45,106 nucleotides of DNA from Nitrospirota bacterium (GTDB lineage Bacteria; Nitrospirota; Thermodesulfovibrionia; UBA6902): the NCBI GenBank assembly GCA_016215115.1, contig JACRLN010000038.1, positions 1 through 45,106 on the forward strand, written 5' to 3'. The notes under the pieces were generated by a model. The model was not told the DNA's origin. It was given only the letters and a program-made list of their open reading frames with translations, and did not search any database. The position numbers and the translations under genes were made by a program. Within the stretch, counting starts at the first letter, position 1. Every line of letters starts with the position of its first letter. Shown in pieces: positions 24,698 through 34,573 of this stretch.

Positions 24698-25708
24698 ATG
24701 AATAAAGTTACACCTATTTCACTGAGTGTCTTTTTAAGATATTTCAGCCTTTGCTTCATTGTTATCAGCGCTGTTGCATGCAGTAATAAAGACACAATAA
24801 AACCAAGTTCGGATACTTTCAATACTATTAAAGCTGTTTCTGAGAATGAAAAAAGAAATACATTACTTTTAGAGCAGGCCATCAAAGCCTCCCCTCAAGA
24901 TGATTATGTTCTTGGTCCTGAAGATGTTATTGATATTGATGTTTATGAGGTGGAGGACTTGAAGCGGACTGTGAGAGTCAGTCCCGCCGGCTTTATTAAA
25001 TTGCCTCTTGTTAACAACATAAAGGCAGCAGGCTTAACTGTAGCTGAACTTGAAACGGAGATAGGTAAAAAGCTTCAGCAGTATCTTCAGGAGCCTGCGG
25101 TCACTATTTTTATAAAGGAATACAGGAGTCAGAGGATAACTGTTCTGGGAGCTGTCAAAAACCCCCAGGTTCAAATTGTAACACGCCAGAAGTTTTTACT
25201 TGATCTGCTGTCACTTTCAGGCGGGCTTGCCGAAGATGCCGGGGATATATGTTATGTGCAGAGGGGCGGCGGAACCGTAATTATAAATTTAAACGAATTA
25301 TTGATGAAAGGAAATACAACGTTAAACATTCCGGTTTTTTCTGAAGATGTTATCCATGTCCCCAAAGGCGGGGTTGTATTTGTTGACGGAGCCGTGAAGA
25401 ATCCCGGCTCCTTTGTAATGAAGGGAACGGTTACATTATCACAGGTTATTGCAATGGCAAAGGGTTTTAATGATGATGCAATAAAAGATCAACTTAAAGT
25501 ATATAGAAATTCAGGAACGGATGCGATGGAAATTATAGATGTCGATTATGCTAAAATTTTGGCTGAAAATGGTTCAGACTTTGTTTTAAAGGACAAAGAT
25601 GTTGTGATTATACCTAAAAGTAGCGCTAAGGCATTCTGGTATGGTTTTGTTAATACACTCAGGGGCGCAATATCCTTTGGGGGTGTCTCTTTCGGAGCAG
25701 GACTATAG
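24698..25708 (+). CDS. Wza-like polysaccharide export outer-membrane lipoprotein
   Basis: The 336-residue protein has a lipoprotein signal ending VISAVAC and the polysaccharide export domain (YVLGPEDVIDIDVYEVEDLKR ... GFIKLPLVNNIKAAGLTVAE ... EPAVTIFIKEYRSQRITVLG). SLBB-like repeats follow (PQVQIVTRQKFLLDLLSLSGG and VFVDGAVKNPGSFVMKGTVT). The end (FWYGFVNTLRGAISFGGVSF) could form the amphipathic outer-membrane helix. GGAG lies eight bases upstream of the start. It forms the export channel for a surface polysaccharide and is followed 93 bp later by its Wzc-type partner. Confidence 0.93.
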   Translation: MNKVTPISLSVFLRYFSLCFIVISAVACSNKDTIKPSSDTFNTIKAVSENEKRNTLLLEQAIKASPQDDYVLGPEDVIDIDVYEVEDLKRTVRVSPAGFIKLPLVNNIKAAGLTVAELETEIGKKLQQYLQEPAVTIFIKEYRSQRITVLGAVKNPQVQIVTRQKFLLDLLSLSGGLAEDAGDICYVQRGGGTVIINLNELLMKGNTTLNIPVFSEDVIHVPKGGVVFVDGAVKNPGSFVMKGTVTLSQVIAMAKGFNDDAIKDQLKVYRNSGTDAMEIIDVDYAKILAENGSDFVLKDKDVVIIPKSSAKAFWYGFVNTLRGAISFGGVSFGAGL

Positions 25709-25801: not shown

Positions 25802-28003
25802 ATGAGTAAAATTGAGGACAGCATTGAGAGGGCTGTAAAATTGCGAGATGGACGAACGCCTGCAATAATAAGAGAGGCGTCGTTACCGGCGTCAAATTTA
25901 AGGTGGGATTCTGAAAAAGAAGACATACAACCACATTTAAGGGACTATCTTGATATTTTGTTAAAAAGGAAATGGATTGTGATTGCCTTTTTGGTCCCGG
26001 TCGTTATAACTGTTACACTTGTATCGTTTATAATGAAACCGTTATATCAATCATCGGTAACCATTCAATTAGCAGCGGAAAAACCGACAGTTCTGACTTT
26101 CAAGAACATATATGGGGAAACCCAGAGCCCGGAGTATTACGAGACACAATTCAATATTCTCAAGAGCAATGCCCTTGCAAAAAGAGTAGTGGAGAGATTT
26201 CCGGAAGGAATCGAAAAAGAATTTATTGCATCCAAAAATACTTTTTTCCCTCCACTCTGGTCCTCAAATGATGATAAAGCTAATCATCGGAAATGGATTA
26301 GCGCTGAGGCCCGAGAGAAAGCTTTAACTAACTTTCTCGTCAATAAGATAGAGGTTGTACCTATAAAGAAATCACAGCTTGTAAATGTCAATTTTCTATC
26401 ATACGATCCGGCATTAGGTACAAATGTTGCAAATACAATCGCCGATGAATATGTAAAGTTTACGCTTGAGAGCAGAATTGAACCTACCCAACAGGCAAAA
26501 AACAGGCTCGAAAAAGAAGTCGAAGATATGAAAATCAAGCTCGAAAATTCAGAAGAGCAATTTAATGAATATATGAAAAGGAACAATCTCTTCTTTTTTA
26601 ATAAGGAACAAAATTATGAGAGCGTTCTGACTCAGAAACTTTCGATAATCTCTAAAGAATTGAATCAGGCTACAGCCGAAAGGCTTTCAAAGGAAGCGCT
26701 TTATCAGGAAGTCAGGAAACCCGGGAATTATTATAATATTATCCTTTCAAATCCTCTGATACAGACTCTGACGAAGGAATATATAACTCAGGAAACAGAG
26801 TATATTAAACTCTTGAATATACATAAGCCGGATTACCCGAAGATGCTTAGACTCAAAGAACAGATAGAAACGATCAAGAGCAATATTGAGACAGAGGAAC
26901 AGAAGATTATTAATGCATTAGATTCTGATTACAAAATAGCTGTAAAGAAAGAAGGGTATCTGGCTTCTGCTATTGATGGGCTTCATAAGGAGGTCACTTC
27001 AATACAGGATAAAATGGGGCAGTTTCAGATTTTACAGAGAGGGGTTGAGACCAACAGGGTACTTTATGACTCTCTTCTGCAGAGGCTTAAAGAAGTCGGC
27101 GTAAGCACAGCGCTCACTGAAAGCAATATACAGATCCTTGACAGGGCGGAAGTACCGGGCGCCCCTTTTAAACCCAACAAGCCTTTTAATATAGCGCTGT
27201 CAGTGATCTTCGGACTTTTTGGCGGAGTTATGCTGGCCTTCTTTGTTGAGTATTTTGACCGCACCATAAAGACCCCTGATGATGTGGAAAAGGGCTCCCC
27301 CATTCCACTGCTCGGCATGGTGCCCCTATCAGAAGAAATCCCGGAAAAACTTATCTATGTTAACTCAAATAACAATGAAGCCTTCACAGAAGCTTTCAGA
27401 TCTCTTAGCACATATATCCAGTTTGCAAATATCTCAAGACCTCCAAAACAAATATTGATCACAAGCCCTCTGCAGGGAGAAGGTAAAACCTTATTATCAG
27501 TCAATGCTGCTATGAGTCTTGTAAGTTTTCTCGGCAGGGGAATAATTATTGATGCCGACTTCAGAAGACCAAAAGTGCATACCTTTTTTGGTCTTGATAA
27601 TTCTAAAGGGCTTTCCTCTTTGCTCAACGGTGTTACTGACTTTGATGGAACAGTAAAAAAATCTCCTCACCCCGGACTTGATGTTATAACCAGCGGTTCC
27701 ATGCCGTCCAATCCGGCTCAACTTTTAAATTCTCCTCGTATGAGAGAGCTTATTAAGGTTCTTTCTGCCAAATATGATTATGTGATAATTGATTCAGCAC
27801 CGGTGCTTGGCATGTCTGACAGTCTGATCCTTTCTGTTTTGGTTGAATCTGTGATCCTGGTAGTTAAATCAGGCAGTACGCCGGCGGATGCTTTAACCCA
27901 GACATATAAACTTTTGAACAATGTGAATGCAAAAATACTGGGTGTTGTTGTTAATGGAGTGGGCCAGAAGACAAAATACGGGTATTCGTCAAATTATGCA
28001 TAA
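25802..28003 (+). CDS. Wzc-like chain-length determinant and tyrosine autokinase
   Basis: The 733-residue protein has a Wzz domain with TM1 (about 57-80, WIVIAFLVPVVITVTLVSF), a long periplasmic coiled-coil region, TM2 (about 462-485, FNIALSVIFGLFGGVMLAFF) and a cytoplasmic BY-kinase. The kinase has Walker A SPLQGEGKTLLS, Walker A-prime GIIIDADFRRP and Walker B YVIIDSAPV. The C-terminal tyrosine cluster is short (KYGYSSNYA, three Tyr). It controls polymer length and export by cycles of autophosphorylation and works with the Wza-like lipoprotein. The N-terminal MSKIEDSIERAVKLR is the usual start of EpsG/ExoP-type kinases. Confidence 0.94.
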   Translation: MSKIEDSIERAVKLRDGRTPAIIREASLPASNLRWDSEKEDIQPHLRDYLDILLKRKWIVIAFLVPVVITVTLVSFIMKPLYQSSVTIQLAAEKPTVLTFKNIYGETQSPEYYETQFNILKSNALAKRVVERFPEGIEKEFIASKNTFFPPLWSSNDDKANHRKWISAEAREKALTNFLVNKIEVVPIKKSQLVNVNFLSYDPALGTNVANTIADEYVKFTLESRIEPTQQAKNRLEKEVEDMKIKLENSEEQFNEYMKRNNLFFFNKEQNYESVLTQKLSIISKELNQATAERLSKEALYQEVRKPGNYYNIILSNPLIQTLTKEYITQETEYIKLLNIHKPDYPKMLRLKEQIETIKSNIETEEQKIINALDSDYKIAVKKEGYLASAIDGLHKEVTSIQDKMGQFQILQRGVETNRVLYDSLLQRLKEVGVSTALTESNIQILDRAEVPGAPFKPNKPFNIALSVIFGLFGGVMLAFFVEYFDRTIKTPDDVEKGSPIPLLGMVPLSEEIPEKLIYVNSNNNEAFTEAFRSLSTYIQFANISRPPKQILITSPLQGEGKTLLSVNAAMSLVSFLGRGIIIDADFRRPKVHTFFGLDNSKGLSSLLNGVTDFDGTVKKSPHPGLDVITSGSMPSNPAQLLNSPRMRELIKVLSAKYDYVIIDSAPVLGMSDSLILSVLVESVILVVKSGSTPADALTQTYKLLNNVNAKILGVVVNGVGQKTKYGYSSNYA

Positions 28004-28338: not shown

Positions 28339-28476
28339 ATGAAAAATTTGCAAAAAGCCGTAAGTAACCTTATGATTAACAATCAGGAAAAATTTATTGG
28401 TCCCATGGGCCTTGGCTATTGGGGAAAGAATAACCTCCGTAATCTCTATGAGATGGGAGTTCTTCATTACGTATGA
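28339..28476 (+). pseudogene. Remnant of a Gfo/Idh/MocA-type sugar oxidoreductase (N-terminal piece)
   Basis: A 45-codon frame contains MGLGYWGKNNLRNLYEMGVL, the N-terminal Rossmann signature of Gfo/Idh/MocA oxidoreductases in sugar clusters (normally VGLGYWGxNLLRN). The rest of the gene is missing. Its TGA overlaps the ATG of the next gene (ATGA), so the fragment may still be translated and couple ribosomes into that gene. It could be a small real leader peptide, but the match to the family start is too clear for chance. Confidence 0.55.
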
Positions 28477-30560
28477 ATAATATTACATACAGTATCTTTC
28501 AGTTCTTAAGAGACGTTGCTATCAGGAACAGGCGCGTTATCGTCATCACTACTCATCTTATTCAAACGGTGCTGGCAAATTACCTGGCATTCATGATCAG
28601 GTTTGAGCTAATAATTGCGCCGGAGTATCTCAAAATTCTGTTGTACAATCTCCCCCTTCTCTTAATTATACGTTTATTTTTTTATGTTCAGGCAGGTCTT
28701 TATAAAGACATATGGAGTTATTCAAGCATAAGCGACTTGCTTAAAATCATAAAATCCGTAACGTTGGGGAGTGTAACATTCTTTATTGCAATCAGATATC
28801 TGACCGGCAACACATCATATCCCCTGTCAATATATATTATTGACTGGTTATTGTTCATAATTATCTCAAGCGGCAGCAGACTTTTTATACGCATCCTCAA
28901 TGAATATACACACAATCAGTATACAGGGAAAAAAATACTTATTGTCGGTGCAGGTGACGCAGGTGAGAAGATTTTAAGAGACATAAGAAATAGCCACAAA
29001 TTATCTTATAAGCCAATAGGTTTTATTGATGACAATCCTTACAAGAAGGGGCTAATGATACACGGGGTTCCCATCCTGGGACCTATCGACATAATCCCTA
29101 ATATTATTAAAAAGAACAAAATAGATGAAATTTTAGTCACCATTTCTTTAAACAATAATGATACCATCAGAAAGATTTACGAATTATGCAAGCCTTCCAA
29201 TATACTGATCAAGAAACTGCCCGGAATAGACGATATCCTTGATGGTAATATTGCCATGGCTACAAAACTCGGCCAGTGTCTGGTTGATGCCAATCTGGTC
29301 ACTGAAGATAAGGTGCAGCAGGCCCTGGCGCTGCAAAAACAGGAGGGGGGCCGGCTTGGTTCAAAACTTGTAAAACTCGGGTATATCACCGAGGACAAGC
29401 TCGTCTCTTTTCTAAATAATACATACGGTATTTCACATATGAAGCCTATCTCGCTCGAGGACCTTCTGCAGAGAGAACCTGTCAAGACAAATATTGAATC
29501 AGTAAAAAAATATATCAGGAATAAATCCGTGTTAGTGACAGGCGCAGGGGGCTCGATAGGGTCGGAGCTATGCAGACAGATAATTAATTATCATCCATCT
29601 AACCTTATACTGTTTGACCGGTATGAAAACAGCCTTTTTAAGATAGACATTGAATTGTCGTATGAAAACGGGAAAGATAACGGGACCCCTCAAGGCAATA
29701 TTATTCCAATAGTTGGAGATGTTGTGGACCCTGCAACGATGGAGCATGTATTTTCAAAGTTTAAACCCCAGATTGTTTTTCATGCTGCAGCATACAAGCA
29801 TGTGCCTCTTATGGAATATAATCCGATAGAGGCTGTAAAGAATAATATCCTCGGGACAAAAAACCTCATTGATATTGCAGCAAATCATAATGTAGAGAGT
29901 TTTGTAATGATTTCAACTGACAAGGCCGTAAACCCCACAAGTATTATGGGGGCCACAAAGCGTGTGGCAGAGTTTTTAACTATTACAAAGAACTCTAAAA
30001 CCGCCACTAAATTTACGACTGTCAGGTTTGGGAATGTCCTTGGAAGCAATGGAAGCGTGATCCCTACATTTAAGGAACAGATAAAAAAAGGCGGTCCAAT
30101 AACAGTTACGCATCGCGATATGAAGAGGTTCTTTATGCTCATTCCGGAAGCTGTTCATCTTGTGCTGTTAGCCGCTTCATCCGGAAACGGAGGCGAGATA
30201 TTTGTGCTTGATATGGGTGAGCAAGTAAAGATCGGCGACCTTGCAGAAAACCTTATAAGGCTTTCAGGATTTATTCCTCACAAGGAGATCAAGATAATGT
30301 ATACAGGTTTAAGACCCGGGGAAAAGATGTTTGAAGAACTTTTCGATGCATCTGAAAAAATAATCCCGACCTTTAATAATAAACTCAGGATAGCAGTTCC
30401 CGCCCTGCCTCCAGTCAATACCCTCAATAAATATGTTGCAGAATTTGAAGACATTGTTAACAATTATGACGTAGAGCGCATAATCCCCACAATTCAGAAA
30501 GTGGTGCCGAATTTTCAAAATGGCAAGTTGTTAAATGTCATGCAGCATATCGAAAAGTGA
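28473..30560 (+). CDS. FlaA1/CapD-type nucleotide-sugar dehydratase with inserted MshEN-like domain
   Basis: The 695-residue membrane protein has four transmembrane segments (about 25-125), a first Rossmann domain (KKILIVGAGDAGEKILRD at 153) and a C-terminal SDR catalytic domain (NKSVLVTGAGGSIGSELCRQI at 350, DKAVNP, FGNVLGSNGSVIP, EGRPGEKM-like GLRPGEKMFEELFD). This is the WbpM/PglF family that makes 4-keto-6-deoxy UDP-sugars. Residues 265-317, between the two domains, carry a tandem motif of MshEN domains that normally belongs to type II secretion or pilus ATPases and can bind c-di-GMP. In the plain family this point is only a short loop before LEDLLxREPV. So the enzyme may be gated by c-di-GMP. 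Confidence 0.93.
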   Translation: MNNITYSIFQFLRDVAIRNRRVIVITTHLIQTVLANYLAFMIRFELIIAPEYLKILLYNLPLLLIIRLFFYVQAGLYKDIWSYSSISDLLKIIKSVTLGSVTFFIAIRYLTGNTSYPLSIYIIDWLLFIIISSGSRLFIRILNEYTHNQYTGKKILIVGAGDAGEKILRDIRNSHKLSYKPIGFIDDNPYKKGLMIHGVPILGPIDIIPNIIKKNKIDEILVTISLNNNDTIRKIYELCKPSNILIKKLPGIDDILDGNIAMATKLGQCLVDANLVTEDKVQQALALQKQEGGRLGSKLVKLGYITEDKLVSFLNNTYGISHMKPISLEDLLQREPVKTNIESVKKYIRNKSVLVTGAGGSIGSELCRQIINYHPSNLILFDRYENSLFKIDIELSYENGKDNGTPQGNIIPIVGDVVDPATMEHVFSKFKPQIVFHAAAYKHVPLMEYNPIEAVKNNILGTKNLIDIAANHNVESFVMISTDKAVNPTSIMGATKRVAEFLTITKNSKTATKFTTVRFGNVLGSNGSVIPTFKEQIKKGGPITVTHRDMKRFFMLIPEAVHLVLLAASSGNGGEIFVLDMGEQVKIGDLAENLIRLSGFIPHKEIKIMYTGLRPGEKMFEELFDASEKIIPTFNNKLRIAVPALPPVNTLNKYVAEFEDIVNNYDVERIIPTIQKVVPNFQNGKLLNVMQHIEK
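29265..29423 (+). other. MshEN-like tandem motif encoded within the dehydratase gene
   Basis: Residues 265-288 read KLGQCLVDANLV then TEDKVQQALALQ, and residues 294-317 read RLGSKLVKLGYI then TEDKLVSFLNNT, joined by the five-residue spacer KQEGG. The known c-di-GMP-binding MshEN motif is RLGxx, two aliphatic, xxG, two aliphatic, xxxxLxxxLxxQ, twice, with a five-residue spacer. Length and register fit exactly. Deviations: Lys for Arg and Asn for Gly in the first copy, Tyr for an aliphatic residue and Thr for the final Gln in the second. Confidence 0.8.
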
Positions 30561-30688: not shown

Positions 30689-31462
30689 ATGAAAGCAGTA
30701 ATTCTTGCCGGTGGATATGGCACTCGTATTTCTGAAGAAACCACTGTAAGACCTAAGCCTATGGTAGAAATTGGCGGAAAGCCAATTCTCTGGCATATCA
30801 TGAAAATCTATTCAGCTTATGATATTACCGACTTTATTATTTGCTGTGGCTATAAAGGATATATGATCAAAGAATACTTTTCCAGGTATTTTCTTCATAT
30901 GTCGGATGTTACCATAGACTTAAAGAATAACAGTATGAAAGTCCATCAAAATGGTGTAGAACCATGGAAAGTTACATTAGTTGATACCGGCGAGAAAACA
31001 ATGACCGGAGGGCGTCTTAAAAGAGTGGGAGATTATATCGGGAAGGAAACCTTCTGTTTTACTTACGGGGATGGGGTGAGTGACATCAATATACAAAAAT
31101 TAATTGAGTTTCATAAGTCTCAAAAAACAATGGCTACGTTAACAGCGGTTCAACCGCCGGGAAGATTTGGCATTATAAACATCAGTGATGAGCATGCCAG
31201 GATTTTAAGCTTTAAGGAAAAACCTGCCGGTGACGGCACATGGATAAATGCAGGTTTCTTCGTAATGGAACCTGACGTGCTGGAATATATCTCTGATGAT
31301 GCGACTGTATGGGAACAGGAACCGATGCAGAATTTAGCGCATGATGGGAATTTGTCGGCTTATAAATATCGAGGCTTCTGGCACGCAATGGATACTTTAC
31401 AGGACAAACATATTCTTGAAGAACTATGGAAATCAGGCAAAGCACCCTGGAAGGTATGGTAA
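30689..31462 (+). CDS. rfbF: Glucose-1-phosphate cytidylyltransferase
   Basis: The 257-residue protein has the nucleotidyltransferase signature [20 protein letters not shown], the catalytic-site TYGDGVSDI, and the family ending [18 protein letters not shown]. It couples CTP and glucose-1-phosphate to CDP-glucose, the first step to CDP-6-deoxy sugars. GGGAGG precedes the ATG. The matching dehydratase rfbG lies further on at 33500, separated from it by an oxidase and by broken genes; a C-terminal remnant of a second rfbF sits directly before rfbG. Confidence 0.95.
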
Positions 31463-32841: not shown

Positions 32842-32925
32842 GTCTTAAGGTTGAGTTTTTAAACAGACTCTAACTATATACCCACAGGAATGTCTGAAGA
32901 ATTAAAAAATGAAGCAGGAGAAATT

Positions 32926-33204
32926 ATGAAAATACTGATTACAGGGAATATAGGTTATATCGGACCGTGTGTAGTGCAAAGGTTGAGGACCTCTTTCCCG
33001 GGCGCAGTTCTGGTCGGACTTGACATGGGATATTTTGCAAATTGCCTGACAAATGCAGAGATTCTTCCTGAATGCAGGGTTGACATGCAGTATTTTGCAG
33101 ATGTGAGAAAGCTTCAGACGGATTTGCTCAGGGGCGTGGATGCAATAGTGCACCTTGCAGCCATATCAAACGACCCTATGACATTAATCATCTGGCAAGT
33201 ATAG
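32926..33204 (+). pseudogene. Truncated NAD-dependent sugar epimerase (N-terminal fragment)
   Basis: From ATG 32926 (GGAG upstream) the frame reads MKILITGNIGYIGPCVVQRL, the Rossmann start of an SDR sugar epimerase, and continues through VDAIVHLAAISNDPM. It then loses homology (TLIIWQV) and stops at 92 codons. A full enzyme would have over 300. It is a broken gene with an intact start, next to another broken gene. Confidence 0.8.
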
Positions 33205-33231: not shown

Positions 33232-33500
33232 CATACCAAGATTACAAGCTTTAAAGAAAAACCCGATGGAGATAGGGGTATGATGAACGGTGGTTTTTGG
33301 TTTTGGAATCAGGTAGTGTTGATTACATACGAGATGACTTCACTATATCGGAAAATGAATCGATGGAGAAGCTGTCACATGATAGTATGTTGTCCGCGTA
33401 CAGACATCATGGATTCTGGGTGCCTATGGATATATTGAGTGATAGAATGTATCTTGAAGAATTATGGAATTTCGGAAAAGCTCTGTTGAAGGTGTGGTAG
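33232..33500 (+). pseudogene. C-terminal remnant of a second rfbF, frameshifted
   Basis: One frame reads KITSFKEKPDGDRGMMNGGF; after the T run at 33294-33298 the next frame continues VLESGSVDYIRDDF to HHGFWVPMDILSDRMYLEELW. Both parts match the end of the intact RfbF ([30 protein letters not shown]). One T lost from the run explains the shift. Only the last third of the gene is left, and its TAG overlaps the GTG of rfbG, as an ancestral rfbF-rfbG junction would. Confidence 0.82.
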
Positions 33501-34573
33501 TGAATAAGAACTTTTGGAAAGATAAAAAAGTTTTAATAACAGGACACACTGGATTCAAGGGAAGCTGGCTGTCTTTATGGCTTCAGAGCTTGGGTTCTCA
33601 GGTCATAGGATATGCTCTGGATCCATCCGGGAAACCAAATTTGTTCGAGGACGCAAATGTTGCAGGAGAAATGGTTTCTATATTTGGAGATGTTCGCAAT
33701 CTGGAATTGCTCCAGTCGGTGCTTGAAAAGCATAAGCCGGAAATCATTTTTCACATGGCTGCCCAGTCTTTGGTGCGATATTCTTATTATCATCCTGTAG
33801 AGACATATACAAGCAATATCATGGGCACAGTGAATATCCTTGAGGCTGTTAGACGTACCGATAATGTACGTGTTGTGGTTAATATTACAAGCGATAAGTG
33901 TTATGAAAATAAAGAGTGGGCATGGGGATATAGGGAGATTGAACCAATGGGTGGGCATGACCCCTATTCAAGCAGTAAGGGGTGTGCTGAGCTTGTCACC
34001 GCAGCCTATCGTAATTCCTACTTTTCAAATGAGGATATTGACCGCCAGTCTGTCGCGGTAGCGACCGCAAGAGCCGGTAATGTGATCGGGGGAGGGGACT
34101 GGTCTGAGGACCGTCTCGTGCCTGATATAATGAGGTCGTTTATTAAGAACCGGCCGGTTGTTATCAGGAACCCAAATGCCATACGCCCCTGGCAGCACGT
34201 ACTTGAACCGCTTTCAGGGTATTTGCTCCTCGCGGAGAAATTGTGGGACGATGGACCGCGGTTCTCCGAAGCATGGAATTTTGGTCCCGCCGATGACGAT
34301 GCAAAGCCGGTATCATGGATCGTGGAAAATTTAGTACGGGCGTGGGGTGAAGGAGCGAGCTGGCGAACAGATACAACCCTGCAGCCACACGAAGCGCTTT
34401 TTCTGAAACTGGACTGTTCAAAGACCAAGCACCTGCTGGGATGGTCACATAGGCTGAGTTTGGCTGTGGCCCTGGAGTGGACGGCAGATTTCTACCGGCT
34501 TTATAAACGAAAAGGAAATTTTAGTCAACTTATCAGAGATCAGATACTGAGCTATGAGAGAATGACAGCATAA
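33500..34573 (+). CDS. rfbG: CDP-glucose 4,6-dehydratase
   Basis: I chose GTG 33500 (357 residues) because it overlaps the stop of the rfbF remnant and places VLITGHTGFKGSWLSLWLQS at the N-terminus; the frame can be extended upstream only into the rfbF remnant. The SDR signature YxxxK is seen in DPYSSSKGCAEL, and RAGNVIGGGDW and RPWQHVLEPLSGYL are typical of RfbG. It turns CDP-glucose into CDP-4-keto-6-deoxyglucose. The dehydratase for 3-deoxy sugars (rfbH) is not present, so the end product probably keeps the 3-oxygen or is methylated at C3. Confidence 0.94.
   Translation: MNKNFWKDKKVLITGHTGFKGSWLSLWLQSLGSQVIGYALDPSGKPNLFEDANVAGEMVSIFGDVRNLELLQSVLEKHKPEIIFHMAAQSLVRYSYYHPVETYTSNIMGTVNILEAVRRTDNVRVVVNITSDKCYENKEWAWGYREIEPMGGHDPYSSSKGCAELVTAAYRNSYFSNEDIDRQSVAVATARAGNVIGGGDWSEDRLVPDIMRSFIKNRPVVIRNPNAIRPWQHVLEPLSGYLLLAEKLWDDGPRFSEAWNFGPADDDAKPVSWIVENLVRAWGEGASWRTDTTLQPHEALFLKLDCSKTKHLLGWSHRLSLAVALEWTADFYRLYKRKGNFSQLIRDQILSYERMTA

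Follow-up and report, generated by a model that had tools for sequence, protein, structure and literature searches.

c-di-GMP activates polysaccharide polymerases. Among described systems, the MshEN_N subdomains of the traffic ATPases MshE, PilB and PilF stand at the N-terminus of their proteins (5htl, 8pdk; PMC5013675, PMC11731258), and fusions of MshEN to diverse domains have been noted (PMC5013675). In E. coli, the c-di-GMP-controlled glycosyltransferase NfrB carries a C-terminal MshEN (PMC8669469). WbpM of P. aeruginosa and PglF of C. jejuni (5bju) have a membrane N-terminal half and the catalytic signature TDKxnMx3K, and the soluble WbpM catalytic domain is active without its N-terminal half (PMC8987622).

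The window analysed here, a 45,106-nucleotide stretch of Nitrospirota DNA, encodes a protein of 695 aa that reads as a WbpM/PglF-type UDP-GlcNAc 4,6-dehydratase with an inserted MshEN_N (28473-30560, plus strand, as are all window features given below; ORF and Pfam evidence). It shares with MshE, PilB and PilF the two motifs, their spacer, the predicted four-helix fold and most of the contacts, but it has neither MshEN_C nor an ATPase, its domain is internal to an enzyme rather than N-terminal, and the Gln of motif 2 is a Thr in the window copy. Like NfrB, it is a membrane enzyme involved in polysaccharide synthesis to which an MshEN has been joined. NfrB, however, polymerises sugar through a GT2 glycosyltransferase domain, none of which was detected in a Pfam scan of the window protein, whereas the window protein is an upstream nucleotide-sugar dehydratase with the domain lying internally. 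Compared with WbpM and PglF, it has gained a predicted c-di-GMP module of 58 residues, while insert-less relatives of the same class show a direct junction. The original prediction, which spoke of a new kind of control point in polysaccharide synthesis, is thus too broad, as control by MshEN already has a precedent in NfrB (PMC8669469); the insertion into a nucleotide-sugar dehydratase looks new. No MshEN in such an enzyme was found in the literature searched, although the supplementary architecture tables of PMC5013675, which lie outside that search, may list one. In this literature, MshEN and dehydratase were mentioned together only in work on V. cholerae diguanylate cyclases. As to the type of enzyme, which had been called both FlaA1/CapD-type and WbpM-type, the relationship to WbpM/PglF is retained (Mx3K) and that to FlaA1 proper (Yx3K) is not.

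The N-terminal part of the protein (aa 1-246, 28473-29210) comprises membrane segments and a CoA_binding_3 Rossmann domain (PF13727, aa 81-246, E=5e-17). Hydrophobic segments lie near aa 22, 46-74, 89-107 and 114-139, and helices are also present there in the full-length model. The catalytic SDR domain (Polysacc_synt_2, aa 353-636, 29529-30380, E=4e-118) has C. jejuni PglF (5bju/5bjw, 45% identity over the catalytic domain) as its nearest solved structure. Its catalytic residues T482, D483 and K484, followed by M492-x3-K496 (29916-29960), reproduce the TDKxnMx3K signature (PMC8987622) and are invariant in two family alignments. Taken together, these features identify a long, membrane-anchored UDP-GlcNAc 4,6-dehydratase, for which we infer both the substrate and the 4-keto-6-deoxy product.

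When aligned with 26 same-class relatives that lack it, the protein shows an insertion of 58 residues (aa 262-319, 29256-29429). It contains motif 1 (aa 265-288, KLGQCLVDANLVTEDKVQQALALQ, 29265-29336), the five-residue spacer KQEGG (aa 289-293, 29337-29351) and motif 2 (aa 294-317, RLGSKLVKLGYITEDKLVSFLNNT, the last Q being replaced by T317; 29352-29423), in the MshEN register published in PMC5013675. Motif 1 was read against the consensus of that study, and both motifs are covered by the NCBIfam model of a cyclic di-GMP-binding domain related to MshE, NF053729, which matches aa 265-315 with 59.3 bits (E=2.4e-16), well above its cut-off of 38 bits. A PDB sequence search with the insert segment retrieved the N-domains of MshE, PilB and PilF (E=3.5e-8 to 4e-15). 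Given these two kinds of match and the presence of co-linear inserts in another 29 genomes from the same class, the resemblance to the MshEN register is far beyond chance.

The Pfam MshEN model, PF05157, gave no match anywhere in the 695 aa of the window protein. In related ATPases, the PF05157 match (aa 58-95 onwards) begins only C-terminal to the segment with the two motifs; the model therefore describes mainly MshEN_C, which explains why Pfam misses an insert made of MshEN_N only. By the same token, the MshEN_C subdomain with its Asp contact is absent from the window protein, and the insert is just the MshEN_N half, the part with nearly all c-di-GMP contacts. The original prediction had placed two 24-residue motifs at these positions, exactly five residues apart, and had supposed a short loop before LEDLLxREPV in plain dehydratases. 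Both points are borne out, the former in the ORF itself and the latter in the same-class relatives, which have only a few residues at the insert site. Its assignment to an MshEN domain holds for MshEN_N, in view of the NF053729 score, the fit of the modelled fold to c-di-GMP-bound MshE and the recurrence of the insertion among relatives (see below), though not for MshEN_C, with PF05157 unmatched. TIGR03029, a model of the EpsG chain-length tyrosine kinase, also matched aa 264-316 through its positions 3-55 (E=1.4e-5). This match at the N-terminus of the model suggests that some EPS tyrosine kinases may likewise have an MshEN_N.

To examine the putative ligand site, the key contacts R/K/L1, L2, G3, L17, L21 and Q24 were compared in both motifs (12 positions). 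The window copy departs from the consensus in motif 1 by R1 to K, G10 to N and L17 to V, and in motif 2 by Q24 to T, so that 10 of the 12 contacts are identical or carry the accepted K, the exceptions being the V at position 17 of motif 1 and the T at position 24 of motif 2. Across 29 full fusion sequences, Gly3 of both motifs and Gln24 of motif 1 are invariant, Gln24 of motif 2 is retained in 21, and the two glycines of the spacer are conserved in 29/29 and 28/29. The most conserved positions of the insert are the ligand contacts, with a mean entropy of 0.60 bits against 1.49 bits for positions that are neither contact nor core (n=29 fusions; permutation p=0.001).

Known receptors bear on the substitutions of the window copy. 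In PilF GSPII-B, a Lys at motif position 1 (K167) accompanies an affinity of 6 nM for c-di-GMP, and a single Gln to Glu change in motif 2 of PilF is compatible with an affinity of 460 nM (PMC11731258); that change is harsher than the Gln to Thr seen at the same site here. A GSPII N-subdomain whose motifs had been restored binds with an affinity of about 0.7 uM in isolation from its C-subdomain (PMC12002112). Two non-binders are also on record, PilF GSPII-A, which is similar in sequence (PMC12002112), and XpsE, which lost many contacts together (G11V, R38G, G40L, Q61V and more; PMC5013675). On these comparisons, binding of c-di-GMP by the insert is very probable, and the affinity of the window copy may be lower than that of its relatives, given its motif-2 T and an N where the consensus has a turn Gly.

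An AlphaFold2 model of the isolated insert comprises four helices (aa 255-272, 278-291, 295-301 and 307-317) with an overall pLDDT of 87, rising to 95-98 in the core. Its closest PDB match is c-di-GMP-bound MshE (5htl_B; rmsd 0.9 A over 53 columns, 42% identity), and the top 13 Foldseek matches are exclusively N-domains of MshE, PilF and PilB, the weak E-value of 0.02 reflecting the very small size of the domain. In this model, helix alpha-1 starts well upstream of K265 and is continuous with the linker that comes from the N-terminal half. The full-length model is moderately confident (mean pLDDT 72, insert 54-78, flanks below 50) and gives no reliable domain arrangement.

The fusion was sought in 230 Thermodesulfovibrionia (Nitrospirota) genomes with a query spanning the insert-dehydratase junction, and matches to insert and junction were found in 30 of them, with scores well apart from those of single-domain matches. 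A second genome collection, partly overlapping the first, yielded 25 fusion loci in a scan with two narrow peptide patterns, which may overlook independent fusions in other phyla if their junctions differ in sequence. All fusion records belong to Nitrospirota/Thermodesulfovibrionia except one from Candidatus Scalindua, and none was found outside the class among 396 sampled genomes of the phylum. Within the phylum of Scalindua (294 genomes), the fusion occurs only in that single genome. Its gene is isolated there, flanked by a DEAD-box helicase and an ABC-F ATPase, and this copy looks like a horizontal transfer or a mis-binning. The same record (G459) contains eleven MshEN_N matches, and several of the frames, of 492-880 aa, need not be ATPases.

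The 26 insert-less relatives include the close sister L023 as well as paralogues from genomes that also have the fusion. When 33 proteins were scanned with NF053729, the 23 matches equalled the number of fusions among them, and 0/10 insert-less members matched. When the insert was taken out before tree building, the fusions grouped in a single clade (SH-like support 0.95), next to which L023 was placed (0.72). The closest inserts outside the fusions are the N-domains of same-phylum T2SSE ATPases (64-68% identity), and the insert of the window gene has a G+C content of 48.8%, against 36-41% for the rest of the gene. MshEN_N was probably acquired once, in an ancestor within Thermodesulfovibrionia; the most likely donor would be a type II secretion or type IV pilus ATPase of the same class, and the simplest scenario is that such an ATPase supplied its N-subdomain.

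The dehydratase gene lies in a polysaccharide cluster. Upstream are genes for a polysaccharide export protein (Poly_export/SLBB, 24698-25708; Pfam, NCBIfam) and a Wzz-type chain-length protein with a tyrosine autokinase domain (25802-28003; TIGR01007 above cut-off, Pfam Wzz/GNVR/AAA_31). Downstream are the CDP-sugar genes, coding for a glucose-1-phosphate cytidylyltransferase (30689-31462; TIGR02623 above cut-off) and a CDP-glucose 4,6-dehydratase (33464-34573; TIGR02622 above cut-off), and the cluster also includes an ABC exporter. A short epimerase-like fragment of 104 aa at 32890-33204 is possibly a gene remnant. Among 60 ORFs neighbouring related fusion loci were found 13 DegT aminotransferases, 9 bacterial sugar transferases and 11 sigma-54 response regulators, the latter often encoded by a gene of about 450 aa directly downstream of the fusion. 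The adjacency or fusion of an initiating sugar transferase connects the enzyme with the beginning of a glycan pathway. In L067 and L070 (family f17), a single chain contains a bacterial sugar transferase, CoA_binding_3, the MshEN_N insert and Polysacc_synt_2; chains of this family measure 900-940 aa, and L068, L069, L071 and L074 would belong to it by length. Such proteins may unite sugar synthesis, c-di-GMP sensing and initiating transfer. The insert-less relative L024:1063-3762 (G040:C53) has an N-terminal sugar transferase and a C-terminal response-regulator receiver domain, so that a further signal input seems to be joined to this type of dehydratase.

We propose that c-di-GMP would bind between the two 24-residue motifs and that binding would require unwinding of the N-terminal turns of helix alpha-1. 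Since alpha-1 is continuous with the N-terminal membrane/Rossmann half, the ligand should reshape the link between the two halves of the enzyme. The altered link might switch dehydratase activity, oligomerisation or the hand-over of product to the initiating sugar-phosphate transferase, and thereby the supply of 4-keto-6-deoxy-GlcNAc for polysaccharide initiation. We regard as probable, but some way short of certain, this general course in which binding to the insert changes the coupling of the membrane and catalytic halves and so switches supply or hand-over. The stricter proposal, that c-di-GMP within the dehydratase allosterically switches 4-keto-6-deoxy-GlcNAc production and thus forms a second-messenger gate on nucleotide-sugar synthesis, seems to us evenly poised between right and wrong. 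Judged by the identity of the domain, an effect of c-di-GMP on enzyme activity is plausible, and by analogy with NfrB and MshE, activation at high c-di-GMP would be the more likely sign. In other receptors, MshEN_C moves on ligand binding and may help to transmit the signal; that it is missing here counts against the gating explanation. Furthermore, as the soluble WbpM region works alone, coupling of the insert to catalysis is not self-evident, and this independence of the catalytic region would suit an insert that binds c-di-GMP but governs location or the choice of partner, such as the initiating transferase or the chain-length kinase, instead of catalysis. The position of the insert in the linker between domains agrees with such a role, as do the initiating transferases adjacent or fused in many members; we consider it rather unlikely, yet deserving of weight.

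It is a good deal less probable that the insert is a degenerate MshEN_N that does not bind and has been kept as a structural spacer or dimerisation element. The Q to T of motif 2 and the G to N of motif 1 in the window copy, the missing MshEN_C and the existence of sequence-similar non-binders such as XpsE (PMC5013675) and PilF GSPII-A (PMC12002112) would speak for it. However, the ligand contacts are the best-conserved residues of the insert, and whereas XpsE lost many contacts, both Gly3, the motif-1 Gln24 and the Leu contacts are retained here. That the fusion would be an artefact of assembly or binning, or a chance resemblance, has next to no likelihood. The genome of the window is a draft in 57 contigs, but the co-linear fusion recurs in 30/230 genomes of the class and at 25 loci of a partly overlapping collection, in continuous open frames that form one clade in the tree; these independent recurrences rule out an assembly artefact. 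Should c-di-GMP indeed control the dehydratase through the coupling of its two halves, biofilm signalling would govern the supply of the precursor in addition to polymerisation or export. A receptor located in the precursor-making enzyme would shift c-di-GMP control to the start of the pathway, and the minimal MshEN_N half of 53 residues would be a portable switch, capable of insertion into an unrelated enzyme.

The signalling capacity of the window genome was also considered. It encodes 20 GGDEF domains and six other MshEN_N matches, of which five fall in frames of the length typical of the ATPases (528-595 aa); from this it is very likely that c-di-GMP is made in this organism. At G000:C57:41384-42443, an MshEN frame of ATPase size adjoins a GGDEF gene on the same strand. 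Additionally, an ORF of 85 aa (L172:1462-1719, minus strand, G000:C31) consists nearly entirely of MshEN_N (45 bits) and possibly encodes a small, stand-alone c-di-GMP-binding protein.
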